Positions 5,609 to 22,084 of a DNA stretch of 64,000 bases are shown here, in pieces. The first letter of the stretch is position 1, and each line of letters opens with the position of its first letter. The DNA comes from Amycolatopsis jejuensis. Its GTDB lineage: Bacteria; Actinomycetota; Actinomycetes; Mycobacteriales; Pseudonocardiaceae. The notes under the pieces are model-generated. The model was not told the origin of the DNA, did no database searches, and saw nothing but the letters and a program-made list of their open reading frames with translations. The position numbers and the translations under genes are program-made. The DNA is taken from the NCBI RefSeq assembly GCF_000717335.1, contig NZ_JNYZ01000003.1:186001-250000 (forward strand), in the 5' to 3' direction.

Positions 5609-5629
5609 ATCTGAACAAGGAGAACCGCC

Positions 5630-6556
5630 ATGAAGGCAGTGCGCTACCAGCAGTACGGCGACAGCGACGTGCTCGCTTACGTCGACACCCCGCGTCCGGT
5701 GCCGGGACCCGGCCAGGTGCTGGTGCAGGTGGCCGGGACGTCGTTCAACCCGGTCGACGCGACCATCCGCTCGGGGGTGCTGGAGCAGGTGTTCCCGGTG
5801 ACGTTGCCGCACGTGCCAGGCGTCGACGTCGCGGGGACGGTCGCCGAGCTCGGCGACGGCGTCGAGGGCTGGCAGGCCGGTGACGAGGTCGTCGCGTTCC
5901 TGCCGATGACCGCCGACGGTGCCGCCGCGGAGTACGTCGTGGCCCCGGCCGGGGTGCTCGCCGCCGCACCGTCCACAGTGGATCTTGTCGACGCCGCTGC
6001 ACTGCCCGCGGTCGCGCTGACCGCGTGGCAGGCACTGCACACCAACGCTCAGCTGAAGTCCGGGCAGACCGTGCTGGTCAACGGCGCCGGTGGCGCGGTC
6101 GGCGGGTACGCGGTGCAGTTCGCCAAGGAAGCCGGCGCGACGGTCACCGCGACCGCGAGCGACCGCAGCGCCGAGCGGGTCCGCGGCTACGGCGCTGACC
6201 GGATCGTCGACTACCGCACCGCGCCGGTCACCGAGATCGGCGAGCAGTTCGACGTCGTGCTCAACCTCGTCCCCACCGACCCGGAGACGACCGCGGCGCT
6301 CGTCCAGCTCGTCGCCGACGGTGGCGTGTTCGTGTCCACCACCACGCCCGGACCGGAGAACCCCGGCCGCGGCGTCCGCACCAGCAGCGTGTTCGTCCAG
6401 TCCGACGCCACCCAGCTGGCCGACCTCGTCGCCCGCCTGGACGCCGGAAAGCTGCAGCTCAACGTGGCCGGCCGCCGTCGGCTCGCCGACCTTCCCCTCG
6501 TCCACGCCGAAGCCGACGGCGGGCACCTCGCCGGCAAGACCGTCCTGCACCCCTGA
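5630..6556 (+). CDS. NADP-dependent quinone oxidoreductase (zinc-free MDR family)
   Basis: 308-residue medium-chain dehydrogenase/reductase of the QOR type: N-terminal GroES-like fold with NPVDATIRSG, then the nucleotide-binding motif VNGAGGAVGGYAVQFAK near residue 150. The catalytic-zinc cysteines of alcohol dehydrogenases are absent, as in quinone reductases. AAGGAG precedes the ATG. It is the first gene of a three-gene operon facing a MarR repressor, followed 14 bp later by an ene-reductase. Likely role: reduction of quinones or activated alkenes. Confidence 0.9.
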   Translation: MKAVRYQQYGDSDVLAYVDTPRPVPGPGQVLVQVAGTSFNPVDATIRSGVLEQVFPVTLPHVPGVDVAGTVAELGDGVEGWQAGDEVVAFLPMTADGAAAEYVVAPAGVLAAAPSTVDLVDAAALPAVALTAWQALHTNAQLKSGQTVLVNGAGGAVGGYAVQFAKEAGATVTATASDRSAERVRGYGADRIVDYRTAPVTEIGEQFDVVLNLVPTDPETTAALVQLVADGGVFVSTTTPGPENPGRGVRTSSVFVQSDATQLADLVARLDAGKLQLNVAGRRRLADLPLVHAEADGGHLAGKTVLHP

Positions 6557-6570
6557 AGGGAAAACCCTCG

Positions 6571-7650
6571 ATGACCACCGCATTCGACCCGATCGCCCTG
6601 GGCAGCACGAAGCTCCCCAACCGCATCGCGATGGCTCCGATGACGCGGAGCCGCGCGTACGGGCCGGGCGCCACGGTGACCGACCTGACCGCGACCTACT
6701 ACGCCCAGCGGGCGAGCGCCGGACTGATCATCACCGAGGGCACGCAGCCGTCGGTGCTCGGCCAGGGCTACCCGAACACGCCCGGCTTGCACACGGATGA
6801 CCAGGTCGCCGCGTGGCGCAAGGTCACCGACGCGGTGCATGCCGAAGGCGGCACGATTTTCGCGCAGCTCATGCACACCGGCCGGATCAGCCACCCGAGC
6901 CTGCTGCCCGGCGACCTGCACCCGGTCGCGCCGTCCGCGATCCTGCCGCAGGGCAAGGTCTTCACCAACGACGGCCTGCAGGACCTGGTGACGCCGAAGG
7001 AACTGACCGGCGACGAGATCACCCGGACGATCGCGGACTTCGCGGCTGCCGCCCGCAATGCGATCGACGCGGGCTTCGACGGCGTCGAGATCCACGGCGC
7101 GAACGGGTACCTGATCCACCAGTTCCTCGCGCCCAACGCCAACCTGCGCACCGACCGCTGGGGCGGTTCGGTGGAGAACCGGATCCGGCTCGGGGTGGCG
7201 GTGGCGAAGGCCGTCACGGACGAGATCGGCGCCGACCGCACCGGATTCCGCATTTCGCCGGGTAACCCGTTCAACGACATCACCGAAACCGACGCGGCCG
7301 ACGTCGACGAGACCTACACCGCGCTCCTCACCGAGCTGGCGTCGCTGAATGTCGCGTACGTGCACCTGATCGAGGGCGCCGACCGCGAGCTCACGCTCCG
7401 GCTGCGCAAGACGTGGCCAGGTGTGTTCGTGCTGAACCCGTTCACCCGCCCCGATCCGACCGGTCCGGAGACCCTGGGCCTCGTCGAGGACGGGACGGCG
7501 GACGTCATCTCCTTCGGCGCGCTGTTCCTGGCCAACCCGGACCTGCCGCGCCGCCTCGCCGAAGGCGGTCCGTTCACCACCCCCGACCGGACCACCTTCT
7601 ACGGCGGCGACCACCGCGGGTACACCGACTACCCGAAGCTGTCCGACTGA
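6571..7650 (+). CDS. Old Yellow Enzyme family alkene reductase
   Basis: 359-residue FMN-dependent ene-reductase of the NemA/XenB type, full length. Visible signatures: MAPMTRSRA near the N-terminus, the substrate-binding HGANGYLIHQFLAP near residue 175 and NLRTDRWGGSVENR. The family reduces alpha,beta-unsaturated carbonyls, nitroesters and maleimides with NADPH. The ATG has GAAGGG upstream. Being downstream of a quinone reductase under an apparent MarR operator supports an electrophile-detoxification role. Confidence 0.93.
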   Translation: MTTAFDPIALGSTKLPNRIAMAPMTRSRAYGPGATVTDLTATYYAQRASAGLIITEGTQPSVLGQGYPNTPGLHTDDQVAAWRKVTDAVHAEGGTIFAQLMHTGRISHPSLLPGDLHPVAPSAILPQGKVFTNDGLQDLVTPKELTGDEITRTIADFAAAARNAIDAGFDGVEIHGANGYLIHQFLAPNANLRTDRWGGSVENRIRLGVAVAKAVTDEIGADRTGFRISPGNPFNDITETDAADVDETYTALLTELASLNVAYVHLIEGADRELTLRLRKTWPGVFVLNPFTRPDPTGPETLGLVEDGTADVISFGALFLANPDLPRRLAEGGPFTTPDRTTFYGGDHRGYTDYPKLSD

Positions 7651-7669
7651 AACCGAAAGAGTGAGAACC

Positions 7670-8089
7670 ATGGTCGACCGCGCCGCATTCAACCAGCGCA
7701 CCATTGCGGAATTCCGCCAGAACGACGGCAAGGTGGGCGGTCCGTTCGAGGGCGCGCCGCTGCTCCTGCTGCACACCGTCGGCGCCCGTAGCGGGCAGCC
7801 GCGGGTCAACCCGATGATGTACCTGCCCGACGGCGAGCGGTACCTCGTCTTCGCGTCGAAGGCCGGTTCCGACCGCAACCCGGACTGGTACTGGAACCTG
7901 CGCGCCACCCCGGACGCCCGCATCGAGGTCGGCGACCGGACGCTGGACGTACGCGCGGTCGAGCTGGAAGGCCCGGAGCGCGACGAGGTGTTCCGCGTCC
8001 AGGCCTCGCGGTACCCCGGTTTCGGCAGGTACCAGCAGATGACCGACCGGATCATCCCGGTCGTGGCGCTCGTGCCGGTCGAGGGCTGA
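7670..8089 (+). CDS. Nitroreductase/deazaflavin-dependent oxidoreductase family protein
   Basis: 139-residue protein of the Ddn-like family (split beta-barrel, F420- or flavin-binding). Family features: LLLLHTVGARSGQPRVNPMMYL at the N-terminal half (two strands around the GARSG turn), then SKAGSDRNPDWYWNLRATPDARIEVG. Mycobacterial relatives use F420 to reduce nitro compounds and quinones; whether this one prefers F420 or FMN cannot be told. ATG at 7670 has a weak purine-rich site; the operon gap is 19 bp. Last gene of the MarR-linked operon. Confidence 0.85.
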   Translation: MVDRAAFNQRTIAEFRQNDGKVGGPFEGAPLLLLHTVGARSGQPRVNPMMYLPDGERYLVFASKAGSDRNPDWYWNLRATPDARIEVGDRTLDVRAVELEGPERDEVFRVQASRYPGFGRYQQMTDRIIPVVALVPVEG

Positions 8090-8212
8090 ACGGCGGTTTC
8101 CGGCTGTCCGGCGGCGGATTCCGGCTGTACAGGAGCGGGCCCGCCGACATACCGTGACGTCGGCTGTGCAAGTACCCACAAGGTGGTGCGGTACCAGAAC
8201 AGAGGTGAACCG

Positions 8213-9253
8213 ATGGCGCCGACGTCACACCCGGCCGGAACCAGTCCGTGGAACGTCGCGGACGCGATCGGCAAACCGGCCGGGCAGCTGCTGCACACCA
8301 CCGATCTCGACCAGGCGTCCGCGGTGATCGCGGAGAACTACCAGCCGGGGCGGCTGCACATCGCCGCCCCGCGCCGTCCGCTGGACATGGTGATGTGGAC
8401 CAACACGCTGCCCGGCCTGCGCCTCAACTACCTGTCGTACGGCACCGACGTCGTGGTCACCGCCCCGCCCGCGGAACGTTACGTGCTGTGCCTGCCCATC
8501 ACCGGCAGTGTGCGGATCGGGTCCGCGCGCACACAGATCGAGGCGTCGGCGAACCGGCTCGGCGCCGCGATCAGCCCGGACGCCTCGGCGTTCTTCGAGA
8601 ACTGGAGCGACGACTGCCGGGTGGTCACCGCGCGGTTCGCGCCCGCTCAGCTGGAAGACCTGCTGGCGACCATGCTGGACCGGCCGCTGTCCGGGTCGAT
8701 CCAGTTCGACCTCGGGGTCGACCTGGAGGAGCCGAGCGTCCGGGCCGTGCTGCGCACGCTCACGCTCGTGCGCAACGAGCTCGACCGGCCGGACGGGATC
8801 ACGTCCGATCCGACGATGGGTACCGGGCTCGCGCGGCTCGTGATGACCGGCCTGCTGCTCGCGCAACCGCACAACTACAGCGAGCTGCTGCACCAGCCCG
8901 CGAAAACCGTGGCGCCCCGGCGGATCCGCGGGGCGATCGAGTACATGGAATCGCATCCGACGGAGATCGTCGGCGTCGCGGACCTGGCTCGGGTGGCGAA
9001 GCTGAGCGTGCGGGCGCTGGAGGCCGGGTTCCGCAAGCACGTCGGGGTACCGCCGATGGCGTACCTCCGCAAAATCCGGATGTCCGGGGCACATTCGGAA
9101 CTGCGCACTGCCGACGCGGGTGCGGACACTGCCGCGGCAATTGCCCGGCGTTGGGGATTTCACCATTATGGCCGATTCGCGACCGCGTACCGTGATCGTT
9201 ACGGCGAAGCACCTTCGGAAACGCTGCGGCAAACTGCGACCGGGCCTGCGTAA
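8213..9253 (+). CDS. AraC family transcriptional regulator
   Basis: 346-residue activator-type protein with an N-terminal AraC-binding-like (cupin) sensing domain and a C-terminal double helix-turn-helix (about residues 245-340, VADLARVAKLSVRALEAGFR and the second motif ARRWGFHHYGRFATAYRDRYG). GAGGTGA lies just upstream of the ATG; an upstream in-frame GTG at 8183 is less likely. It heads the catabolic block and is followed in the same direction by an SDR, so it may control that gene and the monooxygenase operon beyond. Inducer unknown. Confidence 0.9.
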   Translation: MAPTSHPAGTSPWNVADAIGKPAGQLLHTTDLDQASAVIAENYQPGRLHIAAPRRPLDMVMWTNTLPGLRLNYLSYGTDVVVTAPPAERYVLCLPITGSVRIGSARTQIEASANRLGAAISPDASAFFENWSDDCRVVTARFAPAQLEDLLATMLDRPLSGSIQFDLGVDLEEPSVRAVLRTLTLVRNELDRPDGITSDPTMGTGLARLVMTGLLLAQPHNYSELLHQPAKTVAPRRIRGAIEYMESHPTEIVGVADLARVAKLSVRALEAGFRKHVGVPPMAYLRKIRMSGAHSELRTADAGADTAAAIARRWGFHHYGRFATAYRDRYGEAPSETLRQTATGPA

Positions 9254-9347
9254 TCCGGCTGACGCGCAGCGGAAAAAGGCTGCAGTGACGAAAACTGGCG
9301 TACCTACGCTGACTCCACCACTTGTCACGTGGCGAGCGGGAGAGCGC

Positions 9348-9364
9348 AAAGGAGCGTCGCCTTG
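9348..9364 (+). promoter_or_regulatory. Ribosome-binding site deciding a TTG start
   Basis: AAAGGAG at 9348-9354 is followed after seven bases by TTG at 9362. An ATG or GTG further upstream in the same frame would place this Shine-Dalgarno inside the gene and add residues that SDR proteins do not have, so TTG is chosen as the start of the SDR gene. Confidence 0.7.
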
Positions 9365-10117
9365 TATACGGATCTCGAAGGCAAAGTCGTCATCGTCACC
9401 GGGGCCGGCGGCGGGATCGGCCGGGAAACCGTGAAACGGTTCGCCGACAACGGTTCGCTGGTGATCGCCACCGACGTCAACGAGGAAACCGGACACGAAA
9501 CGGTCGAGTACGCGGGCAAGGAACTCGTCACGTTCGTCGCTGCTGACGTGAGCAATGCGGATTCCATGGGACGGCTCGTCGAGCGGACCCTGGAACTGCA
9601 CGGACGGCTCGACATCGCCCACAACAACGCCGGGGTCGAGCTCAACGGCCCGCATCTCGCCGATGTCACTCCCGAACAGTTCGACCGGATCATGGCAGTG
9701 AACCTGTCCGGGGTGTTCCTTTCCATGCGCGCGGAAATTCCGGCGATGCTGAACGGGTCCGGCGGATCGATCATCAACACGTCGTCCGGGCTGGGGGTAA
9801 AGGGGTTCGCCGGGCAATCCTCTTACGTGGCTTCGAAACACGGCGTGCTCGGACTGACCAAGACGGCCGCGCTCGAATACGCCGCGCAGGACGTACGGGT
9901 GAACGCTGTGATGCCCGGGGTGGTGCGGACGCCGATGGTGGAAGCCATCGAAGCGGAAGTGCCCGGGTTCATCGACATGGTGACGGCAAAACATCCCATG
10001 GGACGTCTTGCCACTCCCGGGGACATCGCGAATGCCGTGCTGTGGCTGGCTTCCGAACAATCGGCGTTCGTGTCCGGGGCGGCCATTGCCGTGGACGGCG
10101 CGCTGCTCGCCGGGTGA
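9362..10117 (+). CDS. SDR family oxidoreductase
   Basis: 251-residue classical short-chain dehydrogenase starting at TTG. It reads LYTDLEGKVVIVTGAGGGIG at the N-terminus, NNAGVEL, NTSSGLG, the catalytic YVASK and a C-terminal AVDGALLAG. The acidic residue after the second strand (ATDVNEE) points to NAD(H) rather than NADP(H). It lies between the AraC regulator and the monooxygenase operon, suggesting alcohol/ketone interconversion in the same pathway. Confidence 0.92.
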   Translation: MYTDLEGKVVIVTGAGGGIGRETVKRFADNGSLVIATDVNEETGHETVEYAGKELVTFVAADVSNADSMGRLVERTLELHGRLDIAHNNAGVELNGPHLADVTPEQFDRIMAVNLSGVFLSMRAEIPAMLNGSGGSIINTSSGLGVKGFAGQSSYVASKHGVLGLTKTAALEYAAQDVRVNAVMPGVVRTPMVEAIEAEVPGFIDMVTAKHPMGRLATPGDIANAVLWLASEQSAFVSGAAIAVDGALLAG

Positions 10118-10187
10118 CGCGAAAACAGGCACCTGCTCGGCGGTAATCGGCGGGTTCGCGTTCCGGTGCCGTTCCTATGCTCGGCAC

Positions 10188-11267
10188 ATGGTCAAATCAT
10201 GGTTGTTCGACATCTTCAACTATCCGCACGATCCGCGGCCCGAAGGCTTCGATCCCGAGCTGGCACAAGAAGAATTCGACTGGCACCTGGAAACCTGGAC
10301 CGGCGCGGAAGAACTCGGCTACGACGGGATCTTCTTCTCCGAACACCATTTCACCGCCTACAACATGAGCCCGTCGCCGAATCTTCTCGTTTCGGCGGTG
10401 GCCCAGCGGACGAACACGATGCACCTCGGCGTGATGTGCAATGTCACGGCATTCCACCATCCCCGGCGGCTGGCCGAGGAAACGGCCATGCTCGACTACC
10501 TGACCCACGGCCGCCTCGAAGTCGGGCTCGGCCGGGGCGCCGACGATCTCGAATTCAAGAAGGAGGGTTTCCCGCTCGAGGACACGCGGGCGTGGTTCGA
10601 GGAGTCCCTCGAACTCATGCACCAGGCGTGGGAAAAGCCGCGTTTCACCCACCACGGCCGGTTTTTCGACTACCAGGACACCGCACTCTACCCACGGCCG
10701 CTGCACCAGCCCCGGGTCTGGATCACCGCGCTGAGCCCGTCCACGGTGAGCTGGGCAGCGGCCAAGGGGTACCGGATGGCCATCTCGTTCCTGCCCGCGT
10801 CCGGGCTCGCGGACATGCGCAAGGCGTACGACGAGGCCGCGCGAGCCGCCGGACGCACGCCCACCGCGGACGACGTCGCGATGCTGCGCAACGTCTTCGT
10901 GGCCGACACCGACGAGCAAGCGCGCGAAATCGCGGAACCGGCGCTGGACCACGTTTTCCGGCTGTACAAGGAAGCCGCGGTACCCGAGGACGTCGAGCAC
11001 ATGGCGAAAGGGTACGAGGCGTACTCGTCGTTCTTCCGCCCGTTCGTTTCCGGCGGCGGGGTGACGTTCGAAGACCTGCAGGCGGCCGGAATCGTGATCG
11101 TCGGGTCCCCGGAATCGGTGCGGGACCAGCTGGTCGCGCAGACCTCCGAGGTCGGCTGCGGGCACCTGCTCAACTGGTTCTCCTTCGGCGCGCTGACCAA
11201 GGAGCAGACCCAGCGCTCGGTCGAGCTGTTCGCGAAGGAAGTCGCCCCCGCCCTGCGCGCGGTCTGA
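10188..11267 (+). CDS. LLM class flavin-dependent monooxygenase
   Basis: 359-residue luciferase-like TIM-barrel oxidoreductase. Hallmarks: EELGYDGIFFSEHHF near the N-terminus, NLLVSAVAQRTNTMHLG, LDYLTHGRLEVGLGRG and a C-terminal LLNWFSFGALTKEQ. Group members use reduced FMN supplied by a flavin reductase, or F420; the flavin reductase encoded six genes downstream makes FMNH2 use likely. First gene of a tight operon and followed by a second, divergent family member, so the two may act on successive intermediates or as a pair. Confidence 0.9.
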   Translation: MVKSWLFDIFNYPHDPRPEGFDPELAQEEFDWHLETWTGAEELGYDGIFFSEHHFTAYNMSPSPNLLVSAVAQRTNTMHLGVMCNVTAFHHPRRLAEETAMLDYLTHGRLEVGLGRGADDLEFKKEGFPLEDTRAWFEESLELMHQAWEKPRFTHHGRFFDYQDTALYPRPLHQPRVWITALSPSTVSWAAAKGYRMAISFLPASGLADMRKAYDEAARAAGRTPTADDVAMLRNVFVADTDEQAREIAEPALDHVFRLYKEAAVPEDVEHMAKGYEAYSSFFRPFVSGGGVTFEDLQAAGIVIVGSPESVRDQLVAQTSEVGCGHLLNWFSFGALTKEQTQRSVELFAKEVAPALRAV

Positions 11268-11288
11268 CCCGAGAAAGCAGACGAGGCA

Positions 11289-12428
11289 ATGAAGTTCTCC
11301 TTTCTGTGCTCCCAAATCTATGGCGACACCGAGCACTACCGGACCCAGAAGAGCTGGCCGGTGCCGCCCGCCCGCTACCGCCCGGCGATCGGTGAGCGGT
11401 CCACCGATTTCGCGCTCGACCAGGCTGCGCTGGCCGAGGAGCTGGGTTTCGACATGGTGAGCGTGTCCGAACACCACTACTGGCCGTCGCTGCCGAGCCC
11501 CAATCCCGCGGTGCTCGCCGCGGCGCTCACCCAGCGTACGAGCCGGGTGCGGATCGGGTGGATGGGTCCGCTGGTCTCGATCGCCAATCCCGTCCGGATC
11601 GCCGAGGAAGCGGCCATGCTCGACCAGCTCAGCCACGGCCGGCTCGAGTTGCTGCTGCTGCGGGGAACGCCCAACGAATTCGTTTCCTACAACGTGAATC
11701 CGGCCGAGACCCGCGGCCGGACGCAAGAGGCGACCGAGCTGATCGTGAAGGCCCTCACCGAACCGCAGCCGTTCGGCTGGCAGGGCCGGTATTACCAATA
11801 CCCCACGATTTCGTTGTGGCCCGGTGTTTCGCAGCAGCCGCGGCCGCCGATTTACGGGTCGGGGAACAGTCCCGAGTCCGTGCGTTACGCCGCTGCGCGT
11901 GGGTACAAGATCGGTATTTCGTTCTATCCTGCGCAGTTGACCGCGAAGCTCGTTCAGTCCTATCAGGACGCTTGTGCGGAAGCCGGACGTACGACGACTG
12001 CTGCCGATGTGCTTTACCGCGCGCATGTCACAGTTGCCGAAATCGAACGTGACGCCAAAGCGTTGGCGTCACGGTATTACGGCGAAGGTGGTCTCGGTCA
12101 GGCAGCGGCGCTCATGGGGCGCGGTGCGACTGTCGCATCCGAACTCCGGCCGCCGACGGAATTGGGGACCGACGCGGACGGGAAGAAAGCCGGTGCGGCG
12201 GGATTCGCGCTCGGCAAGCTCGATTTCGCCGGTACTCCGGAAAGTGTGGTGGAGCAGTTGACCGAATTCGCCTCGATATCGGGCGTCGGGTTGCTGGATC
12301 TCGGCTTCTCCGGCGGCGGGCTCACCGAGGCCGAACGGGACCGTAGCCTCCGGCTGTTCGGCGAGGAAGTGCTGCCGAAACTGCGACACCTCGGTGCCCC
12401 GGACGAGGAGTACGCCGATGCTCACTGA
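11289..12428 (+). CDS. LLM class flavin-dependent monooxygenase (second copy)
   Basis: 379-residue luciferase-like protein with EELGFDMVSVSEHHYWPS, PNPAVLAAALTQRTSRVRIG and LDQLSHGRLELLLLRG. It is clearly different in sequence from the copy just upstream rather than a recent duplicate. The stop overlaps the ATG of the following hydrolase by 11 bases, showing translational coupling. Likely substrate chemistry is monooxygenation or Baeyer-Villiger-type oxidation; the substrate is unknown. Confidence 0.9.
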   Translation: MKFSFLCSQIYGDTEHYRTQKSWPVPPARYRPAIGERSTDFALDQAALAEELGFDMVSVSEHHYWPSLPSPNPAVLAAALTQRTSRVRIGWMGPLVSIANPVRIAEEAAMLDQLSHGRLELLLLRGTPNEFVSYNVNPAETRGRTQEATELIVKALTEPQPFGWQGRYYQYPTISLWPGVSQQPRPPIYGSGNSPESVRYAAARGYKIGISFYPAQLTAKLVQSYQDACAEAGRTTTAADVLYRAHVTVAEIERDAKALASRYYGEGGLGQAAALMGRGATVASELRPPTELGTDADGKKAGAAGFALGKLDFAGTPESVVEQLTEFASISGVGLLDLGFSGGGLTEAERDRSLRLFGEEVLPKLRHLGAPDEEYADAH

Positions 12429-13200
12429 AGCCAGCGTGCACGTCGACGGTTTCGACATCCGTTACCGCACCGCCGGAACCGGCGACCCATTGGTGTTCCT
12501 GCACGGTGCGGGTGGACCGGCACCGGCGCGGACGCACGAGATCCTTGCACAGGACTTCCGCGTGATCCTCTTCGAGATGCCCGGCTTCGGCGGTTCCCCG
12601 GCCAACTCGCGGCACACGCACGCAGCACAGCTCGCCGACACAATGCATGAAGCGGCGAAGCAGGTCGCAGGCGGGCGTTACACCTTGATCGGGACTTCGT
12701 TCGGCAGCCGGATCGCGTCGTGGCTGGCAGTGCGGCACGCCACCGAAATCGATGCGCTCGTGCTCCTCGCACCCACCGGAATCCTGCCGGACGGGTTCCG
12801 CCCGCCGACCGTCGAAACGATGCTCGGCAGCCGCGCCGGGCTGTACGCGCATCCCGAGCAGATCGAGATGCGGCCGCAGCTCAGCCGGGAAACCGCGGTG
12901 CGGCAGGCCGAGGTCGTCGGACGCCTGCTGACTCCCCGTGACGAGGAACTCGAGGACGCCTACCGCACCCTTTCGGTGCCCACCCTGTTGCTGTTCGGCA
13001 CCGAGGATCGGCGCATTCCGCCGGATCTTGCTCGCCGTTACCTCGAATTGAACCCGGAGTTCGCCATGCTGTTCGTTTACGACGCGGCCCATGTCCTGGA
13101 AGAAGAACGACCCGAGGCCACCGCGGATGCGATCGGCGCATTTGCCCGGCACCGGCTGGGATTCGTGGTCAACCACTCGGACAACCGGGTGTTCCCGTGA
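12418..13200 (+). CDS. Alpha/beta hydrolase
   Basis: 260-residue alpha/beta-fold hydrolase. Visible: oxyanion motif FLHGAGGPAP, nucleophile elbow GTSFGSR with the catalytic Ser, LLFGTEDRRIPP bearing the acid and a terminal AAHVLEEERPEA with the His. The ATG lies inside the end of the upstream monooxygenase, and an upstream ATG at 12394 would overlap even further. Family members of this look cleave esters, lactones or C-C bonds, a natural follow-up to a monooxygenase that makes esters or lactones. Confidence 0.88.
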   Translation: MLTEASVHVDGFDIRYRTAGTGDPLVFLHGAGGPAPARTHEILAQDFRVILFEMPGFGGSPANSRHTHAAQLADTMHEAAKQVAGGRYTLIGTSFGSRIASWLAVRHATEIDALVLLAPTGILPDGFRPPTVETMLGSRAGLYAHPEQIEMRPQLSRETAVRQAEVVGRLLTPRDEELEDAYRTLSVPTLLLFGTEDRRIPPDLARRYLELNPEFAMLFVYDAAHVLEEERPEATADAIGAFARHRLGFVVNHSDNRVFP

Positions 13201-13883
13201 CCGGGCGGCTCGCGGGCAAGACCGCGCTCGTCACCGGAGCGGCCAGCGGAATCGGCGCCGCCGTCGCCGAACTGTTCGCCGCCGAGGGGGCGAAAGTGAT
13301 CGCCACCGATGTCCGGCCCCAGCCGGGCATTGTCGAGCTGGACGTATCGTCCGAAGAGGACTGGCGGGCCGTACTGTCCGGAGTGGACAGCCTCGACATC
13401 CTCGTGAACAACGCGGGAATCGGGGAAGGGCAAGGAATTGCCGACACCGACCTGTCGACCTACCACCGGGTCATCTCGATCACGCAGACCGGCGTGCTGC
13501 TCGGAATGCGCGAGGCAATTCCGCGGATGCCGTCAGGTGGCTCGATCGTCAACATCTGCTCGATCTGGGGCGTCGCAGCGGTTCCCGGGCTGGCGGCGTA
13601 TCACGCGGCCAAGGGCGCGGTGCGGATGCTCACCAAGAATGCCGCGGTCACCTACGCACCGGACGGCATCCGGGTCAACGCGGTCTACCCTGGCTTCGTC
13701 GACACTCCGCTGACGCAGGGCAACGACCCGGCCGCGAACGCCGCGATCATCGGCGTCACGCCCCTCGGTCGCGCCGCGCAGCCGGTCGAAATTGCCTACG
13801 GCTGCCTGTTTCTCGCGTCCGATGAGGCCAGTTTCGTGACCGGTGCCGACCTCGCCATCGACGGCGGGTACCTCGCCCGCTGA
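13197..13883 (+). CDS. SDR family oxidoreductase
   Basis: 228-residue short-chain dehydrogenase starting at GTG that overlaps the preceding stop (GTGA). TGAASGIGAAVAELFAAEGA, NNAGIGEG, NICSIWG, YHAAK and a final TGADLAIDGGYLAR are all in place. It is somewhat shorter than the 250-residue average because a segment between strands B and D is missing, but the active site is intact. Operonic with hydrolase and bicupin genes. Confidence 0.92.
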   Translation: MTGRLAGKTALVTGAASGIGAAVAELFAAEGAKVIATDVRPQPGIVELDVSSEEDWRAVLSGVDSLDILVNNAGIGEGQGIADTDLSTYHRVISITQTGVLLGMREAIPRMPSGGSIVNICSIWGVAAVPGLAAYHAAKGAVRMLTKNAAVTYAPDGIRVNAVYPGFVDTPLTQGNDPAANAAIIGVTPLGRAAQPVEIAYGCLFLASDEASFVTGADLAIDGGYLAR

Positions 13884-13896
13884 AAGGAAATCCGCA

Positions 13897-14667
13897 ATGG
13901 ACTTCGTCCGCAGGTTCGAGCCCGACCGGCTCGCGCGGGACCGGTTCGACCATCAGCCGCTTGCCGACCTGGAGAGCTGCCTGATCGAAGGCGTCCGCAT
14001 GCCAGGCGGCTCCACGGGGTACGCGCGGCATCGGCACGAGGCCGCCGACCAGCTGTACTACGTGCTCGAAGGCCGGATGTCGCTGGACCTCAACGGGACG
14101 CCGTACGACGTCGAGGCCGGTTCCGTCGTCTTCATCCCCGCCGGGACACCGCACCACAACGAGAATCCGCACTCCGCCACGGAACTGCACATCGACGTGA
14201 TGCTCCCACCTCCGCCGCGCGGCGTCCCGCTCGCCACCCCCGCCGGACCGGACGAACGGGGCGGCCCCGGCACCGGGTACGTCCGCGCTGTCGCCGACCT
14301 GCCGAGCCGCGAGGCATTGCCCGGTTTCCACATGCACATTCTGGCCGACCGGCAGACCGAAAGCGGGCGGGCGTCGTTCCGGCTGGCGAACGTCGAGGCG
14401 GGCTCTCCCGGAACTCCGTGGCACATCCACGATTTCGACCAGATCTACTTCATCCTCGAAGGCGCGCTGGACATCGACATCGCCGACCGGCATTACCGTG
14501 CCACGCAAAACGACCTCGTCGTACTGCCTGCCGGGGTCCCGCACCGCAACCACAACGCCGGACCGGGTCAGGAAAGCCACCTCGTGCTGCTGGTACCCGA
14601 ACCGGAACCCGGCACCGAGCTCGACCGGGAAGTCGAGTTCGCCGCGACCGGCCGCAGTTTCGGCTGA
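13897..14667 (+). CDS. Bicupin protein, possible dioxygenase
   Basis: 256-residue protein with two cupin domains. The first (about residues 30-105) has HRHEAADQLYYVLEG and PAGTPHHNEN; the second (about 165-240) has WHIHDFDQIYFILEG and PAGVPHRNHNAG. Each has the two-His/Glu/His pattern that can hold a metal. Bicupins include quercetin and gentisate dioxygenases, but also isomerases and storage-type proteins, so a ring- or C-C-cleaving dioxygenase is possible and not proven. AAAGGA precedes the ATG 13 bp after the SDR stop. Confidence 0.85.
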   Translation: MDFVRRFEPDRLARDRFDHQPLADLESCLIEGVRMPGGSTGYARHRHEAADQLYYVLEGRMSLDLNGTPYDVEAGSVVFIPAGTPHHNENPHSATELHIDVMLPPPPRGVPLATPAGPDERGGPGTGYVRAVADLPSREALPGFHMHILADRQTESGRASFRLANVEAGSPGTPWHIHDFDQIYFILEGALDIDIADRHYRATQNDLVVLPAGVPHRNHNAGPGQESHLVLLVPEPEPGTELDREVEFAATGRSFG

Positions 14668-14687
14668 CACAGAAGGGAACCGCCGCC

Positions 14688-15491
14688 ATGGCATTGATCA
14701 CTGTGGACGGTGCCGTCCGTCTGAACTACCGGATCGCCGGTACCGGACCGGTGCTGGTGTTCCACCCCGGCTTCGGCAACAACCTCGACATGTGGAACTG
14801 GCTCGTCCGCGAGCTGGCGCCGCACCGCACGTGCGTGACCTTCGACCCGCGCGGCCACGGACTGTCGGACAAACCCGACTCCGAATACACCCTTGACGAA
14901 CTCGCCGCCGACACGAATGCGTTGATCGAAGGTCTCGGCCTCACCGACGTCACCTTGGTCGGCCATTCTCTCGGCGGCGCCGTCGCCTTCCAGACCGCAT
15001 TGAAACACAATGGCGGCAACCGGATTACCCGGCTCGCATTGCTCGCGCCCGCACTCCCCACCTTCGTGGCCTTCGACGACATCGGTGTCCCCCGCGAAGC
15101 GTTTGCCGGAATGCAGCAGGGACTTTCCGACGGAATCGTACCCATGGCCCTTGGCATGACCGGCGTGTTCTTCCACCAGACCGACGAAACGACGGCGCAC
15201 TGGTTACTGCAGAAGTGTCTCGAAATGCCGATCCACCTTGCCGAACGGTACTTCGCCCAGCTCGGCACCATCGACTTCCGTCCGGTGCTGGCCGAGCTCG
15301 GCCTTCCGGTGCTGGCCGCATGGGGCGACCACGACCAGATGGCCGACCTGCGGTGGGTGCCCTGGCTGCGCGAGGCGAACCTGCCCGGCTGGTCGGTGGA
15401 AACGCTGCCGGACAGCGGCCACGGAATGATGGTGGACGAACCCGCGCGCCTGGCGCAGCTCCTGCGAGACTTCAGCGGGAGCAAGCCATGA
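14688..15491 (+). CDS. Alpha/beta hydrolase
   Basis: 267-residue alpha/beta hydrolase with VFHPGFGNNLDMW, DPRGHGLSDKP, nucleophile elbow GHSLGGA, WGDHDQMAD with the acid, and DSGHGMMVDEP with the His. This pattern is close to 3-oxoadipate enol-lactonase and meta-cleavage hydrolases, but the exact substrate is open. AAGGGAA precedes the ATG; its stop overlaps the next start as ATGA. Confidence 0.9.
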   Translation: MALITVDGAVRLNYRIAGTGPVLVFHPGFGNNLDMWNWLVRELAPHRTCVTFDPRGHGLSDKPDSEYTLDELAADTNALIEGLGLTDVTLVGHSLGGAVAFQTALKHNGGNRITRLALLAPALPTFVAFDDIGVPREAFAGMQQGLSDGIVPMALGMTGVFFHQTDETTAHWLLQKCLEMPIHLAERYFAQLGTIDFRPVLAELGLPVLAAWGDHDQMADLRWVPWLREANLPGWSVETLPDSGHGMMVDEPARLAQLLRDFSGSKP

Positions 15492-15967
15492 CCGACGCTT
15501 TTCTTGACGTGATGGCCGCAGTACCGACGCCGGTTTCCGTCGTGACCGCAATGGACGGCACGCGCCCGCACGGCACGACGGTCAGCGCATTCGCCTCCCT
15601 TTCCCTCGACCCGCCAATGGTTCTCGTCGCCCTGGACCGCGGTTCCGACCTGCTGAAGATAGTTCGCGAACAGCGCAGGTGCGGCTTGAACGTACTCGCT
15701 TGCGCACAATCCGATCTCGCTAAAGTCTTCGCCCGCAAAGGCGCCGCGAAATTCACCGGTGTGCGATGGTACAGCGAAGACGGACTACCACGACTCGACG
15801 GCGTTTGCGGCTGGCTTTCCTGCAACGTGGCCGATCTCGTCGACGGCGGTGATCACGTCGTGGCACTGGGTACAGTCATCTCGGCGCAGGTCGGGAATCC
15901 GGCGCCACTGACATATCACGCGCGGGAGTTCGGCACCCACATCGCACTGGACAGAGCGGTCCGGTGA
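15488..15967 (+). CDS. Flavin reductase family protein
   Basis: 159-residue flavin reductase-like protein (split barrel, FMN-binding) with PTPVSVVTAMDGTRPHGTTVSAFASLSLDPP at its N-terminus, the standard family signature split over two strands. Members reduce FMN with NAD(P)H for two-component monooxygenases, and it is operonic with two luciferase-like oxygenases, its likely partners. ATGA overlap with the hydrolase upstream and GTGA overlap with ribB downstream. Confidence 0.92.
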   Translation: MTDAFLDVMAAVPTPVSVVTAMDGTRPHGTTVSAFASLSLDPPMVLVALDRGSDLLKIVREQRRCGLNVLACAQSDLAKVFARKGAAKFTGVRWYSEDGLPRLDGVCGWLSCNVADLVDGGDHVVALGTVISAQVGNPAPLTYHAREFGTHIALDRAVR

Positions 15968-16647
15968 CCGTACGAAAAGCTGTCGAAACCCTCGCCGCAG
16001 CCGGAATGGTCGTGGTGATCGACGACGCCGACCGCGAGAACGAAGGCGACCTCATTGCGGCGGCGGAATCCGTGACCGAGGAGCACCTGGCGTTCCTGGT
16101 TCAGCACACCACCGGAATCATTTGCGTGCCGATGCCGCCGGAACGGTGTACTGTCCTCGACCTCCCGCAAATGGTGGCTGACAACACCGACCCGCACAGC
16201 ACCGCATTCACGATCAGCGTCGACCACGTCAGCACCGGAACCGGAGTGTCCGCTGCCGATCGGGCAACGACTGTGCGTGCCCTCGCCGATCCACTCACCA
16301 ACCCGGCCCAGCTACGTCGTCCTGGGCACGTTTTCCCGTTGAAGGCAAGGGAAGGCGGAGTCCTCACGCGGCCCGGGCACACCGAGGCAGCCGTCGACCT
16401 GACGCGACTCGCGGGGATGAGCGGGGTCGCCGTGATCGGAGAACTTGTGGCTCCCGGCGGCAGAATGCTACGCGGCCAAGCGCTGACGGATTTCGCCGCC
16501 GAGCACAGTCTTCCGGTGCTCACCGTCGCCGACCTCATCCGGTACCGGCGGTCCGTCGAGCAGGCGCCGGAGGCGGAGAACGTGCGATATCTGTCCACCA
16601 AACCAGAACGGCTCGGGCGCCTGCTGAACCTGCGGAGGAGCAGTTGA
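15964..16647 (+). CDS. ribB: 3,4-dihydroxy-2-butanone-4-phosphate synthase
   Basis: 227-residue monofunctional RibB, starting at GTG overlapping the upstream stop. It makes the four-carbon riboflavin precursor from ribulose 5-phosphate. Conserved active-site blocks are present: DDADRENEGDL, TTGIICVPM, GVSAADRATTVRA, RPGHVFPL and GGVLTRPGHTEAAVDL. No GTP cyclohydrolase II domain is fused, unlike the usual actinobacterial ribBA. Its place right after a flavin reductase in a monooxygenase operon suggests extra flavin supply for the pathway, not housekeeping biosynthesis. Confidence 0.93.
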   Translation: MTVRKAVETLAAAGMVVVIDDADRENEGDLIAAAESVTEEHLAFLVQHTTGIICVPMPPERCTVLDLPQMVADNTDPHSTAFTISVDHVSTGTGVSAADRATTVRALADPLTNPAQLRRPGHVFPLKAREGGVLTRPGHTEAAVDLTRLAGMSGVAVIGELVAPGGRMLRGQALTDFAAEHSLPVLTVADLIRYRRSVEQAPEAENVRYLSTKPERLGRLLNLRRSS

Positions 16648-17885
16648 TGAGCAATTTCGACCACCGCCATTTCCACGGGTTCGGCCCGCGCCCGGACGGC
16701 CGTTATTCCCTGCACCACGCCCGGATGACCCCGGGCAGCCTGCCGGAAGCCATTCTCCCGCTGGTCCCGGACGTCGTCGGAAATGCCGAAGAACCGTTCC
16801 TCGGCATCACCACCGACGGCGTACCGGTTCCCGATCTCTTCGCACTGCAAGACGAAGGTTTCGACCCACGTCCAGCCGCCCGGGCAGCAGCGCAATTCCT
16901 GGCCGGGCTCAGTCCAGAACAACAATCCACCGTACAGTACGACATCGACGCCAAACACTGGCGCAGGTGGACGAACGCCTACCCGAGCTGGGAACCCCAC
17001 GGCGTCCTACTCGACGACCTCACCGCAAAACAGCGCGAAGCGATCTTCGCGGTAATGGAAACCAGCCTGTCGGCCAAGGGTTTCGCCGACGCCCGTACCG
17101 CCATGAAATTGAACGCCGCGCTGGGCGAGCTGATCCGCCAATACCCGGACACCCTCACCGAATTCGCGTATTTCTTCGCCGTTTTCGGCACTCCCTCACC
17201 GGCCACGCCGTGGGGCTGGCAGCTGTGGGGCCACCACCTCGTACTCACCTGTTTCGTACTGGGCCACCAAATCGTGCTGACCCCGGCGTTCATCGGTGCC
17301 GAACCGATCGTCGCCGAACAAGGTACCCATGAGGGTCTCCGGCTCTTCGACGCCGAACGGTCCGCCGGGCTCGCATTGCGCACCAGCTTCACCGCCAAGC
17401 AGACCGGACGCGCCGTGCTGCACCGGTCGCTGCTCTCCACGGAACTGCCCGCTGACCTGGTGAACTTCGTCGACGGGCGACACAAGGCAGGCGCCGGGCG
17501 GGACAACCGGATCCTGCCGCACGAGGGCATTTCCGCGGACCAGCTGTCCACCGGCCAGCAAGACCTGCTCCTCGACCTGGTCCGGACGTACGTCGACCGC
17601 GCTCCGGCAGGTCCGGCGGCGGCGCTGATGGCGCGCGTCCGAGCTCACCTGGACGAGACGTACGTCGCCTGGATCGGCGGCGACACCAGCTCGGAAGCCT
17701 TCTACTACAAGGTGCACAGCCCGGTCCTGCTCATCGAATACGACTGCCACCAGGGCGTCTTCCTGGACAACGACGAACCCGAGCCATTCCACGTGCACAC
17801 CATCGTCCGTACCCCGAACGGCGGTGACTACGGCCAGGACCTCCTTCGACAGCACTACGCGCGCCATCACCCAAACGTTCGTTAG
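16647..17885 (+). CDS. DUF3500 domain-containing protein
   Basis: 412-residue protein; the ATG overlaps the ribB stop (ATGA) and GGAGGAG lies just upstream. I recognise DUF3500 from EPFLGITTDGVPVPDLFAL, LSPEQQSTVQYDIDAKHWRRWTN and WQLWGHHLVLTCFVLG, then a His/Asp/Glu-rich end (YDCHQGVFLDNDEPEPFHVHTI) that could bind metal. Biochemical role unknown. Being the last gene of this catabolic operon suggests an enzymatic part. The TetR promoter site overlaps its stop codon. Confidence 0.85.
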   Translation: MSNFDHRHFHGFGPRPDGRYSLHHARMTPGSLPEAILPLVPDVVGNAEEPFLGITTDGVPVPDLFALQDEGFDPRPAARAAAQFLAGLSPEQQSTVQYDIDAKHWRRWTNAYPSWEPHGVLLDDLTAKQREAIFAVMETSLSAKGFADARTAMKLNAALGELIRQYPDTLTEFAYFFAVFGTPSPATPWGWQLWGHHLVLTCFVLGHQIVLTPAFIGAEPIVAEQGTHEGLRLFDAERSAGLALRTSFTAKQTGRAVLHRSLLSTELPADLVNFVDGRHKAGAGRDNRILPHEGISADQLSTGQQDLLLDLVRTYVDRAPAGPAAALMARVRAHLDETYVAWIGGDTSSEAFYYKVHSPVLLIEYDCHQGVFLDNDEPEPFHVHTIVRTPNGGDYGQDLLRQHYARHHPNVR

Positions 17886-17888
17886 AAT
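17871..17888. promoter_or_regulatory. TetR operator and promoter candidate, copy 1
   Basis: CCAAACGTTCGTTAGAAT overlaps the DUF3500 stop and sits 29 bp before the TetR start. AACG-TT-CGTT is a perfect inverted repeat, and TAGAAT is a good -10 box. The same 18-base sequence, 14 of 18 identical, occurs upstream of the thiolase gene at 22085-22102, which supports a shared TetR target. Confidence 0.6.
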
Positions 17889-17917
17889 GGCGGGGACCGG
17901 CAGTCCGAGGAGGGTTC

Positions 17918-18508
17918 GTGGCACGCACGCGGGGCGCATCGCGGGGACGGCGCGCGGAAGCGCTCGAAGCGGCGGCCCAGGTGTTCTACGAGAAGGGCTA
18001 CGAGGCAGCCAGCATCCAGGACATCGCCGACCGGCTCGGGCTGCTCAAGGGCAGCGTGTACTACTACATCTCGTCCAAAGAGGACGTGCTGTACGAGCTG
18101 GTCAAGAGCTACCACGACGAAACCCGGGCGTACTTCGACGACATCGCCGAGTCGGCCGGCCCGGTGGTCGAGAAGCTCCGCCGCTTCGTGGCCACCGAAA
18201 CGGCGCACACCGCGCGGCACGTGATCAAATCGAGCCTCTTCTTCAGCGAATGGCGGGCGCTCAGCGCCGAACGGCAAGCCGAGATCGTCGCGGAACGCGA
18301 CCGGCACGACACCTTCGTCCAGGACTGCATCCGCGCTGGTCAGCAGGAAGGTCTCTTCCGCAAGGAGATCGACCCGCGGCTCACGGCGTTCGGCATTCTC
18401 GGCATGATGACCTCGGTGTACCGCTGGTACCAGCCGGGCGGACCGGCGTCGGCGGACGACATCGGCCGGGAGTTCGCCGACTTCACGATCAACGGGCTGA
18501 TGGCCTGA
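17918..18508 (+). CDS. TetR family transcriptional regulator
   Basis: 196-residue TetR repressor starting at GTG with GAGGAGG upstream. The N-terminal helix-turn-helix reads ALEAAAQVFYEKGYEAASIQDIADRLGLLKGSVYYYISSKEDVLYE in pieces, resembling regulators of fatty-acid and sterol catabolism that respond to acyl-CoA esters. It lies between the monooxygenase operon and the convergent CoA gene set, and a shared putative operator links it to both itself and the thiolase promoter. Confidence 0.92.
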   Translation: MARTRGASRGRRAEALEAAAQVFYEKGYEAASIQDIADRLGLLKGSVYYYISSKEDVLYELVKSYHDETRAYFDDIAESAGPVVEKLRRFVATETAHTARHVIKSSLFFSEWRALSAERQAEIVAERDRHDTFVQDCIRAGQQEGLFRKEIDPRLTAFGILGMMTSVYRWYQPGGPASADDIGREFADFTINGLMA

Positions 18509-19295
18509 CCGCGAAGCGCGGCTTGCGTTTTTCCCGGAAGGCAGCCAATCCCTCGGCGTAGTCCGGCGAATGCGTGTGCAGTGCCGCCATCGTCTGTTCC
18601 CCGGCCAACGCCGTCGGCAGTGGCTGGTCGACGCCGTCGTCGATCAGCCGCTTCAGCCGGGTCAGCCCGTCACGGCTGCGCGAAACGAGATCGGCGACTA
18701 CTTCCTCGGCAACGACGCCAAGCTTGCCGTCCGGAGCGACGAGCGACACCAGACCCCAGCCGGCCATCGTCACCGCGTCCACGCGCCGTCCGGTCAGCAT
18801 CAGGTATTTGGCCCGGTTCACGCCGATCTTGCGCGGCAGCCGCACCGACCCGCCGCCGCCCGGAAGCAGGCCGTACCCGGCGTGCCCGTCGCCGAACGAA
18901 GCCGATTCCGCCGCGACCACGATGTCGCACGCCGCCGCGATCTCGAGCCCACCGGCGACGGCAATGCCCTGCACCACGCAGACAACCGGCACCGGCGCCA
19001 GTTCCAGCCGCCGCAGCACCGCGGAGATCGAGGCGTGGAACGCGCCGATCGCCGCCGGATCGGGCGCTCCGGCCAGCCCGGCGACCGCGTCGAGGTCGCC
19101 ACCAGCGGAGAACGCCCGCCCGCGCGCCGCGAGCACCACGCACCGGTCCGCCTGAGTCAGGCCGTCCAGCGCCCGGTCGAGCGCGTCGACGACGTCCGGG
19201 TTGATGCTGTTCAGCTTCTCCGGCCGGTTCAGCGTGAGCCACACGGCCTCGGCGCGGCGCTCGACCAGCAGGACGTCCTCAGGCTCCGGAGACAC
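18489..19295 (-). CDS. Enoyl-CoA hydratase/isomerase family protein
   Basis: 268-residue crotonase-fold protein. The oxyanion-hole segments GRAFSAGGDLD and GIAVAGGLEIAAACD are present, and the first catalytic Glu (E144 of rat crotonase) is kept in GGLEIA. The position of the second catalytic Glu (FGQPE in rat enzyme) reads FGDGH, a His instead, so a simple hydratase reaction is uncertain; isomerase, lyase or hydrolase chemistry is possible. Last gene of a three-gene CoA operon; it overlaps the acyl-CoA ligase start of translation by 17 bp and the TetR gene end by 20 bp. Confidence 0.88.
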   Translation of the reverse strand: MSPEPEDVLLVERRAEAVWLTLNRPEKLNSINPDVVDALDRALDGLTQADRCVVLAARGRAFSAGGDLDAVAGLAGAPDPAAIGAFHASISAVLRRLELAPVPVVCVVQGIAVAGGLEIAAACDIVVAAESASFGDGHAGYGLLPGGGGSVRLPRKIGVNRAKYLMLTGRRVDAVTMAGWGLVSLVAPDGKLGVVAEEVVADLVSRSRDGLTRLKRLIDDGVDQPLPTALAGEQTMAALHTHSPDYAEGLAAFREKRKPRFAVRPSAR

Positions 19296-20817
19296 GGGTA
19301 TCGCGGTCCTTCCAGTAGGGCTCCCGCAGTGCGCGCCGCAGGACCTTGCCCACGACGGATTTGGGGAGCGGATCGCTGGTGAACTCGACCCGCGACGGCT
19401 TCAGGTACGAGCCCATCCGCTCGGCCACCAGCGCGATGATGTCCTCGGGCCGGACGTCGGCCCCCTCGTCGACCCGGCACACGGCCATCGGCGTCTCGCC
19501 CCACTTCTCGTGCGGGATGCCGAACACCGCGACCTCGCGGACCTGCGGATGGTCGGCAATCACCGTCTCTAGCTCGGACGGCCAGATGTTGAGCCCGCCG
19601 GACACGATCATGTCGTCGACCCGGTCGAGGACATACAGGTAACCGTTGCGGTCCAGCCTGCCGATGTCGCCGGTGCGGACCCAGCCGTCGCTCAGCCGCG
19701 CCACGGACAGCTCCGGATTACCCCAATAGCCGGACATCTGCCCCTCGATCCGGGCGCGGATCTCGCCGGTTTCGCCCAGCGGCAGCTCGTCGCCGGCGTC
19801 GTCGAAAATCGCCAGCTGCGCGTACGGCAGCACCTTGCCCGCCGAACGCAGCGGCGTGGAACCGGGTACGTCGGCAAACCACTCCTGCGGCGTCATCATG
19901 GTGAGCGGTGTCGCCTCGGTCTGGCCGAAAACCTGGTGCAGTACGTCGCCGAAGGTCGTCCGGGACGCGGCGATGGTGGCGTCGGTGATCGGCGACCCAC
20001 CGGTGACGATGCATTCCAGCGCCGACCAATCCCGTCCGGCCGCTCCGGGCCGGGCGCAGAGCGCAGCCACCATCGACGGCGCCAGAAAAGTGTGGGTTAC
20101 CCGGTGGCGTTCGGACATCTCCAGCACCGCGTCCGGTTCGAAGGCGCCGTACAGCAAATTGGTGCCGCCTTCCAGCCACACCGGGATGAACAGGTAGCCG
20201 GAGGCGTGTGAAATCGGGGCCGCGTGGCCGAACACGCTGTCCGCGGTGAGGCGCGGCAGGCGCACGAACCAGTTGCGGCAGTTGGCAATCCAGTCGTGCT
20301 GACGGTAACCGACGCCCTTGGGATTCCCACTCGTACCGGACGAATGGCGGATGAGATACCAGTCGTCCGGGCCGACCGGGATGAGTGGATCGGTCTCCCG
20401 TTGCCCGGCGAGCCAGCTCTCGTACGTGTCGTCGCGTATGAGAACCTGTTGCAGCGAAGGAACTTCCTCGACCAGACCGTGCACGCTGCCGGCATACGCC
20501 GGATCGGCGAACAGCAGCACGGATTCCGTGGACGCGAGCATCGCGCGATGTGCGGCACGGGAATTTCGTGCGTACAGCGGTACCCGCACGGCTCCGGCGA
20601 TGGCGGCGCCGAGGAGGAGATCCACCGCGGGCAGGGAATTGTCCTCGACCATCGCGACGCGGTCGCCCGGCCGGACGCCGAGATCGATCATCGCGTTGGC
20701 CAGCCGGACGCCGCGTTGCCATGCCTCGCCGTAGGTCAGGGTCTGCCCGGGGGTGACGATCGCGGTCCGCTTCTCGTTGAACCGGGCCGCTTGCCGCAGG
20801 AGTGCGGGCACTTCCAT
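19279..20817 (-). CDS. Acyl-CoA synthetase (AMP-binding family)
   Basis: 512-residue ANL-superfamily ligase activating a carboxylic acid with ATP and CoA. Visible: phosphate-binding SSGTSGNPKGVGYR, FGQTEATPLTMM, GWVRTGDIGRLDRNGYLYVLDR and GLNIWPSELE, plus the C-terminal lysine block LPKSVVGKVLRR. Full length. The ATG at 20817 follows GAGGTGA by six bases. Acid substrate unknown; the neighbours suggest it activates a product of the oxygenase pathway for thiolytic or retro-type cleavage. Confidence 0.93.
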   Translation of the reverse strand: MEVPALLRQAARFNEKRTAIVTPGQTLTYGEAWQRGVRLANAMIDLGVRPGDRVAMVEDNSLPAVDLLLGAAIAGAVRVPLYARNSRAAHRAMLASTESVLLFADPAYAGSVHGLVEEVPSLQQVLIRDDTYESWLAGQRETDPLIPVGPDDWYLIRHSSGTSGNPKGVGYRQHDWIANCRNWFVRLPRLTADSVFGHAAPISHASGYLFIPVWLEGGTNLLYGAFEPDAVLEMSERHRVTHTFLAPSMVAALCARPGAAGRDWSALECIVTGGSPITDATIAASRTTFGDVLHQVFGQTEATPLTMMTPQEWFADVPGSTPLRSAGKVLPYAQLAIFDDAGDELPLGETGEIRARIEGQMSGYWGNPELSVARLSDGWVRTGDIGRLDRNGYLYVLDRVDDMIVSGGLNIWPSELETVIADHPQVREVAVFGIPHEKWGETPMAVCRVDEGADVRPEDIIALVAERMGSYLKPSRVEFTSDPLPKSVVGKVLRRALREPYWKDRDTRVSGA

Positions 20818-20831
20818 CGGAATCACCTCGT

Positions 20832-22067: not shown

Positions 22068-22084
22068 GCCGCCTCCTCTTTCTA

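Follow-up and report, generated by a model that had tools for sequence, protein, structure and literature searches.

The two luciferase-like monooxygenases (LLMs) of luminous operons are encoded by luxAB. In lux-rib operons such a pair is linked with one or more riboflavin-synthesis genes. The lux genes of Photobacterium are accompanied by rib genes in the order E-B-H-A, and those of V. campbellii by ribB only (PMC6409340). A pairing of an LLM with a separate reductase is likewise found in the two-component FMNH2-dependent LLM monooxygenases, among them 3,6-diketocamphane monooxygenase (4uwm). In fungi, a DUF3500 protein (PF12006; IPR021889 in PMC13094099) has been placed at the step where the ring is proposed to open in a central pathway through 1,2,3,5-tetrahydroxybenzene (A. 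nidulans AN10530), and this is the sole role proposed for DUF3500 in the literature that we found (PMC12388069, PMC13094099). Here we describe an operon of Amycolatopsis jejuensis that shares features with each of these systems. It occupies positions 10188-17885 (+ strand) of a 64,000-nucleotide stretch (the window; contig NZ_JNYZ01000003.1, positions 186,001 to 250,000) of a 10.1-Mb genome. The original prediction saw here a catabolic operon of nine genes with overlaps or short gaps, coupling two LLMs to on-site flavin supply. All nine genes lie at the coordinates then predicted, with intergenic gaps of -11 to +21 bp (21, -11, -4, 13, 20, -4, -4 and -1 bp from LLM1 through DUF3500), and Pfam confirmed each family named: two LLMs (PF00296), two alpha/beta hydrolases (ABH1, ABH2), a short-chain dehydrogenase (SDR2), a bicupin (CUP), a flavin reductase (PF01613, FRED), RibB (PF00926) and a DUF3500 protein (PF12006).

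The likeness to each known system is partial. Unlike lux-rib operons, the unit has luciferase scores far under cut-off and catabolic companions, and no fatty-aldehyde gene is among its Pfam matches. Bacterial luciferase (LuxAB) was rejected as an identity, as LLM1 and LLM2 reach 112.1 and 71.5 bits on one and 64.2 and 55.3 bits on the other of the curated alpha and beta models, with cut-offs of 600 and 500, respectively. In contrast to characterized two-component LLM monooxygenases, no NCBIfam LLM model among the matches shown reaches its cut-off for either protein. The fungal pathway resembles the operon by the DUF3500 family alone; the operon differs by its LLM and ABH genes, and its Pfam matches include no FAD-binding hydroxylase that could correspond to the decarboxylating FAD hydroxylase by which the fungal ring-opening substrate is made. 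ApmL/Amc20 of amipurimycin biosynthesis (9x86) is titled a dehydratase, belongs to an antibiotic pathway and is 29% identical to the DUF3500 protein. Gentisate and salicylate 1,2-dioxygenases and quercetinase, also bicupins, share 13-19% identity with CUP, and most have longer chains. The original remark that no named pathway is known to have exactly this set is in keeping with our literature search, which found none with this order; for an LLM with a flavin reductase and ribB, it turned up a paper on the alkanesulfonate monooxygenase MsuD.

It had been proposed that gene order be compared among actinobacteria, and the order does recur. The locus of A. pithecellobii (L005) reads AraC-LLM1-LLM2-ABH1-SDR2-bicupin-ABH2-FRED-RibBA-DUF3500 (57-81% identity, AraC lowest), and a same-genus genome, G251 (L037), has this order plus SDR1 and two genes further upstream (OYE and an F420 quinone reductase; 70-84% identity). 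In Nonomuraea lactucae (L006) the set is rearranged, LLM1 is divergent, an FAH-family gene takes the place of SDR2, and ribB has no match in the locus comparison. The ratio of nonsynonymous to synonymous substitution rates (dN/dS) across the nine genes is 0.12-0.22 against A. pithecellobii and 0.10-0.24 against G251, by a simple count-based estimate with dS of 0.6-1.5 that for LLM1 and ABH1 of G251 takes the best aligned piece only. The nine genes are under purifying selection. Judged by these comparisons, the gene set is one unit, more than chance would give, because same-order orthologs with low dN/dS occur in both A. pithecellobii and G251. In G251, LLM1 and ABH1 are each split over two frames (4834-5909; 7113-7888), a sequencing error or decay. 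From residue 2 onward, LLM2 of G251 matches a protein of Amycolatopsis sp. EV170708-02-1 exactly.

The AraC regulator is linked to the operon in all three relatives, from which the unit probably starts further upstream than LLM1. SDR1 is linked in G251 only, with no ortholog in A. pithecellobii or N. lactucae; in the window AraC and SDR1 each lie 70-75 bp from their next genes, on the operon's strand. The TetR gene is probably not part of the unit, since neither A. pithecellobii nor G251 has an ortholog. Homologs of LLM2 at E <= 1e-60 occur in 2/200 family genomes (a drawn sample that includes the window's genome; G251 is not among them), and the bicupin at E <= 1e-35 in only one of 396 phylum genomes, namely the window's own. 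Proteins of Streptomyces sp. NPDC001177 are 76-79% identical to DUF3500, LLM2 and the bicupin, and this strain probably carries a further copy. The operon is thus real, conserved and uncommon, and its DUF3500 and ribB patterns are of more interest than the LLM pair.

We tentatively favor, at slightly under even confidence, an AraC-controlled catabolic operon that would degrade an aromatic (or aromatic-ketone) compound by monooxygenation, hydrolysis and ring opening. We infer the reactions, their order and the substrate class as follows. FRED would reduce FMN, and RibB would make the butanone half of riboflavin, with the RibA half supplied in trans here and fused in A. pithecellobii. LLM1 and LLM2, acting separately or combined in a heterodimer, would hydroxylate the substrate or carry out a Baeyer-Villiger oxidation with FMNH2 and O2, and ABH1 would hydrolyze their product. 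In the chemistry first suggested, which is a possible form of these steps, the LLMs would make esters or lactones for the hydrolases and the bicupin to cleave. DUF3500 would open the resulting polyhydroxylated ring, and the three-His bicupin might serve as a second oxygenase or an isomerase. ABH2 and SDR2 would then convey the product to central metabolism together with an FAH-family hydrolase, which in the three relatives is encoded within the cluster or close to it and here would act in trans. The catabolic character is supported by context: a DUF3500 clade found with FAH-family genes and bicupins, an ABH1 nearest to a meta-cleavage-product hydrolase, and, in A. pithecellobii, an FAH-family gene and a mycothiol maleylpyruvate isomerase-like gene ~4-5 kb upstream of AraC on the other strand. 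Just upstream of AraC, the same locus carries a sugar-type ABC importer (3965-7645; a PF13407 binding protein, the other two genes assigned by eye), possibly the uptake system for the operon's substrate.

LLM1 matches 3,6-diketocamphane monooxygenase at 5.2e-20. That the LLM cofactor may be FMNH2 rather than F420 is suggested by one feature, the PF01613 reductase, whose ortholog is in the operon of all three relatives. LLM2 appears to partner ABH1: an ABH1-like match lies near LLM2 in 7/9 LLM2 loci (covering just the final third of ABH1 in L007 and L008), and one database entry, P0221, is a natural fusion of LLM2-like and ABH1-like parts. By sequence, the best solved relative of ABH1 is 1j1i, a meta-cleavage compound hydrolase (1.6e-15), and its motifs GTSFG, GTED and AAH are found; those of ABH2 are 5h3h and arylesterases. 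Neither hydrolase was accepted as 3-oxoadipate enol-lactonase (PcaD), with 95.9 bits for ABH2 and 68.7 for ABH1 on TIGR02427 (cut-off 255.85).

LuxA and LuxB form a heterodimer, and LLM1 and LLM2 could similarly be subunits of a single monooxygenase, leaving the rest of the pathway unchanged. Their genes are adjacent and 36% identical, LLM1 is by far the nearest relative of LLM2 in the genome (174.2 bits; next 91.7), and luminous operons with rib genes offer a precedent. We nevertheless consider this somewhat unlikely, given that six of nine LLM2-like loci (L007-L012, some on short contigs) show no second LLM match in the DNA retrieved around them and that LLM1 and LLM2 are divergent in N. lactucae.

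The evidence on DUF3500 comes largely from its neighborhoods. PF12006 is matched by 1284 of 7994 candidate proteins scored at E <= 0.001, and at E <= 1e-10 by proteins of 11/80 genus and 24/396 phylum genomes (the window's in both). When 45 DUF3500 rows were placed in a quick tree, 24 (including the window's) formed clade I and 21 formed clade II, a split with an SH-aLRT of 99. Loci were fetched for 10 of 51 plasmid records (out of 30 listed, spread over organisms), 10/16 genus rows and 19/28 phylum rows; the nine phylum rows dropped were two of the window's genome, G647 (contig edge), the second of G296, both of G300, G277, G413 and G658. A panel of catabolic proteins (matches of >= 95% identity excluded) was compared with the neighborhoods of DUF3500 in clade I (24 loci) and clade II (19 loci) and with 20 arbitrary pieces of 20 kb, drawn from seven genomes with such loci; two clade II pieces span 3.5 and 7.1 kb and several 12-13 kb, so that a neighbor is less likely to fall within them. 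FAH-family genes lie near DUF3500 in 13/24 clade I loci, compared with 1/19 in clade II (p 6e-4) and 0/20 random pieces (p 5e-5), by Fisher tests that ignore the relatedness of loci. Bicupins (8/24), flavin reductases (6/24) and CoA-transferase III (5/24) are likewise confined to clade I (0/19 and 0/20 each), and an HpaI-like aldolase occurs in 5/24, 1/19 and 0/20, respectively. On the DUF3500 tree the presence of FAH requires at least 7 changes, and therefore does not reflect a single inherited event. Annotated clade I clusters contain Rieske genes, FAD hydroxylases and HpaH/HpaI-like genes, as in Paraburkholderia sprentiae (LLM-Rieske-FAH-DUF3500-FAH-cupin), Thioclava (DUF3500-FAH-HpaH-HpaI aldolase, with extradiol hpaD 1.8 kb off on the other strand) and Rhodococcus qingshengii (DUF3500-cupin-AMP ligase-FAH). 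A 7.8-kb contig (L084) reads FAD hydroxylase-DUF3500-SDR-RidA-FAH and, apart from one further unannotated open reading frame, holds no intradiol, extradiol or cupin family of the panel.

RidA-family (PF01042) genes recur near DUF3500 and FAH (L084 4343-4759; L086 5082-5486), and another adjoins an LLM gene in a further host locus (L135). In an alphaproteobacterial locus (L011, 1484-5932), an LLM2-like gene is accompanied by a DUF3500 gene in divergent orientation and by a gene that, judged by eye, encodes a Rieske-type oxygenase.

Several observations weigh against the proposed aromatic pathway with DUF3500 as its ring-opening enzyme. The panel families were picked after the annotated clusters had been viewed, and four of the 24 clade I loci are one operon, that of the window's type. 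Neither LLMs (8/24 clade I, 1/19 clade II, 2/20 random; p 0.07) nor FAD hydroxylases (7/24, 1/19, 2/20; p 0.12) are clearly enriched in clade I relative to the random pieces. FAH has no match in 11/24 clade I loci, the window's among them, and none was found in the 20.5-kb piece around the window's cluster; L039 and L040 have no panel family besides DUF3500, and L087 just an aldolase in addition. Other ring-cleavage genes are near DUF3500 in L050 (intradiol) and in L051 and L086 (extradiol). RibB occurs in just 3/24 clade I loci (the window's own included; 0/19 clade II, 0/20 random) and, conversely, none of the 30 extra ribB copies described below has a DUF3500 or bicupin gene nearby; this operon is thus the sole place where the two patterns coincide. 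The unit offers neither a transporter nor a clue to the substrate, and the AraC protein scores 130.6 on an AndR-like model, far under its cut-off of 350. Finally, ApmL, the only solved DUF3500 protein (PDB 9x86), has the same fold as the window protein (29% identity, matched over model residues 73-390 of 412), H196, H197, E364, H382 and H384 align in both, and its entry bears the title 'dehydratase ApmL'. Since the His/Glu motif aligns with ApmL too, it does not single out a dioxygenase.

The dehydratase title suggests another arrangement, in which the bicupin would be the ring-opening dioxygenase, DUF3500 a downstream dehydratase, hydratase or isomerase, and an FAH or ABH protein would cleave an acylpyruvate-type product. 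CUP has the two HxH...H sites of the three-His bicupin dioxygenases (H45/H47/H86 and H176/H178/H216), with all six His kept in 27/27 aligned sequences, chosen out of 120 listed. Its AlphaFold2 (AF2) model (pLDDT 93.4) is nearest to quercetinase and salicylate 1,2-dioxygenase, and the eight NCBIfam families matched at E <= 0.001 include no gentisate model. We rate this arrangement as rather unlikely; DUF3500 and the bicupin may each be the protein that opens the ring.

A more specific version of the aromatic pathway would make clade I DUF3500 a bacterial family of aromatic-ring-opening enzymes with a conserved His-His / Glu / His-x-His site, and the operon would be the bacterial equivalent of the route that fungi take through 1,2,3,5-tetrahydroxybenzene; this, too, we regard as unlikely. 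Here, Baeyer-Villiger oxidation of an acylphloroglucinol by the LLMs would yield an aryl ester, hydrolysis would release 1,2,3,5-tetrahydroxybenzene (2,4,6-trihydroxyphenol), DUF3500 would convert this to a hydroxydienelactone, and the distantly PcaD-like ABH2 would delactonize it. Such a route fits the gene set; its chemistry we infer. A literature search for a cluster of this kind gave a nearest match concerning anthraquinones.

Turning to flavin supply, RibB is a 227-aa protein with PF00926 only; the C-terminal PF00925 (RibA) half is absent, and it is not a bifunctional RibBA. Its ortholog in A. pithecellobii is a RibBA fusion with PF00925, and in G251 the RibB match runs on in one 477-aa frame. 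In the window the end of RibB (15964-16647) abuts the DUF3500 start directly. The host genome has six PF00926 loci, one of which (C57), beside a riboflavin-synthase-like gene, looks like the housekeeping copy. Three, the operon's included, lie 42 (the operon's), 66 and 93 bp from one of 28 PF01613 loci (29 rows, two merged), and a fourth has an LLM domain 846 bp away; the binomial tail for the PF00926-PF01613 adjacency, which had been noticed before the calculation, is 1.1e-6 at a distance of 200 bp. A survey of 29 other genus genomes gave 60 rows, 29 best copies (10 fetched) and 31 lower-ranked ones, of which 30 were fetched and one, a fragment of 126 bases in G208, was dropped. Within 5 kb on each side, the 30 lower-ranked copies (L167-L196) have FRED in 12, an LLM in 9, either in 17 and ribE in 8, compared with 0, 0 and, for ribE, 10 for the ten best copies; twenty random pieces have FRED in 0 and an LLM in 1. 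Seven of the 30 are from one genome (G208), two of these being neighbors 10 kb apart. FAD-type hydroxylases show no link (0/30 vs 2/20 random). On-site flavin supply is therefore supported, from gene neighborhoods, as a repeated pattern in the genus, because 17/30 extra ribB copies lie near a flavin reductase or LLM compared with 1/20 random pieces. A literature search aimed at ribBA duplicates with flavin reductases found no closely matching paper.

It is conceivable that ribB is instead a passenger, a chance duplicate irrelevant to flavin supply, as five other PF00926 copies, loss of the RibA half in the window gene and the lack of a match in N. lactucae would allow. This is quite unlikely, considering its dN/dS of 0.21 and 0.18, the presence of all five conserved DHBP motifs searched for, the closeness of three of the six genome copies to a flavin reductase domain (<= 100 bp) and the 12/30 extra genus copies near FRED (0/20 random). 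Of the original claim, then, flavin supply stands as a pattern, with its intact motifs, 42-bp spacing and recurring extra copies. The operon may not need ribB, because the gene is absent in N. lactucae, encodes RibB only here, has five other copies in the genome and accompanies DUF3500 in few clade I loci.

That the cluster tailors or detoxifies a secondary metabolite or foreign ketone, rather than serving growth, is improbable: ApmL comes from an antibiotic pathway, the distribution is patchy and the unit lacks a transporter, whereas no assembly-line or glycosyltransferase family is among its Pfam matches and the FAH, HpaI-like aldolase and CoA-transferase neighbors of clade I, with 0/20 random each, fit degradation.

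Table 1. Genes of the operon and its borders in the window, with extra ribB loci elsewhere in the host genome
Feature	Position	Strand	Evidence and remarks
AraC-family regulator	8183..9253	+	PF14525 + PF12833; ortholog beside operon in L005, L006, L037; probable operon regulator
SDR1, short-chain dehydrogenase, optional first gene	9329..10117	+	PF13561; ortholog in place in L037 (76%)
LLM1, luciferase-like monooxygenase	10188..11267	+	PF00296 3.6e-57, 194.5 bits (cut-off 27.9)
LLM2, luciferase-like monooxygenase	11289..12428	+	PF00296 1e-52, 179.9 bits (cut-off 27.9)
ABH1, alpha/beta hydrolase, LLM2 partner	12418..13200	+	PF12697
SDR2, short-chain dehydrogenase	13197..13883	+	PF13561 3.6e-56
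CUP, bicupin, three-His site in each domain	13897..14667	+	PF07883, two stretches
ABH2, alpha/beta hydrolase, arylesterase / enol-lactonase-like	14688..15491	+	PF00561 2.9e-32
FRED, flavin reductase component	15488..15967	+	PF01613 6.9e-38, 130.6 bits (cut-off 27)
RibB, DHBP synthase without RibA half	15964..16647	+	PF00926 6.2e-80; TIGR00506 224.9 (cut-off 177.45)
DUF3500 protein, candidate ring-opening enzyme	16647..17885	+	PF12006 324.4 bits (cut-off 27.2)
TetR regulator	17918..18508	+	PF17932
Extra host ribB/ribBA loci near reductase or LLM (L135-L137)	C15:113521-114614; C15:166967-168021; C29:72353-74757		

Beyond the operon, genes for crotonase, acyl-CoA ligase and thiolase-like proteins lie on the minus strand (18489-22133) and point toward it. 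A scan of 8000-19400 for sigma-70-like promoters found none, which is little informative for an actinomycete. Further along the window, G+C dips to 0.60-0.64 at 28001-36000 (flanks 0.66-0.72), possibly an acquired island.

If DUF3500 does open aromatic rings, a common domain would gain a testable bacterial role, and a pathway described as seemingly fungal-only would gain a bacterial counterpart. The extra ribB copies beside flavin reductase or LLM genes, in turn, suggest that these actinobacteria match their flavin-hungry oxygenases with a raised supply of flavin precursor, much as luminous bacteria would do to judge by the lux-rib order.

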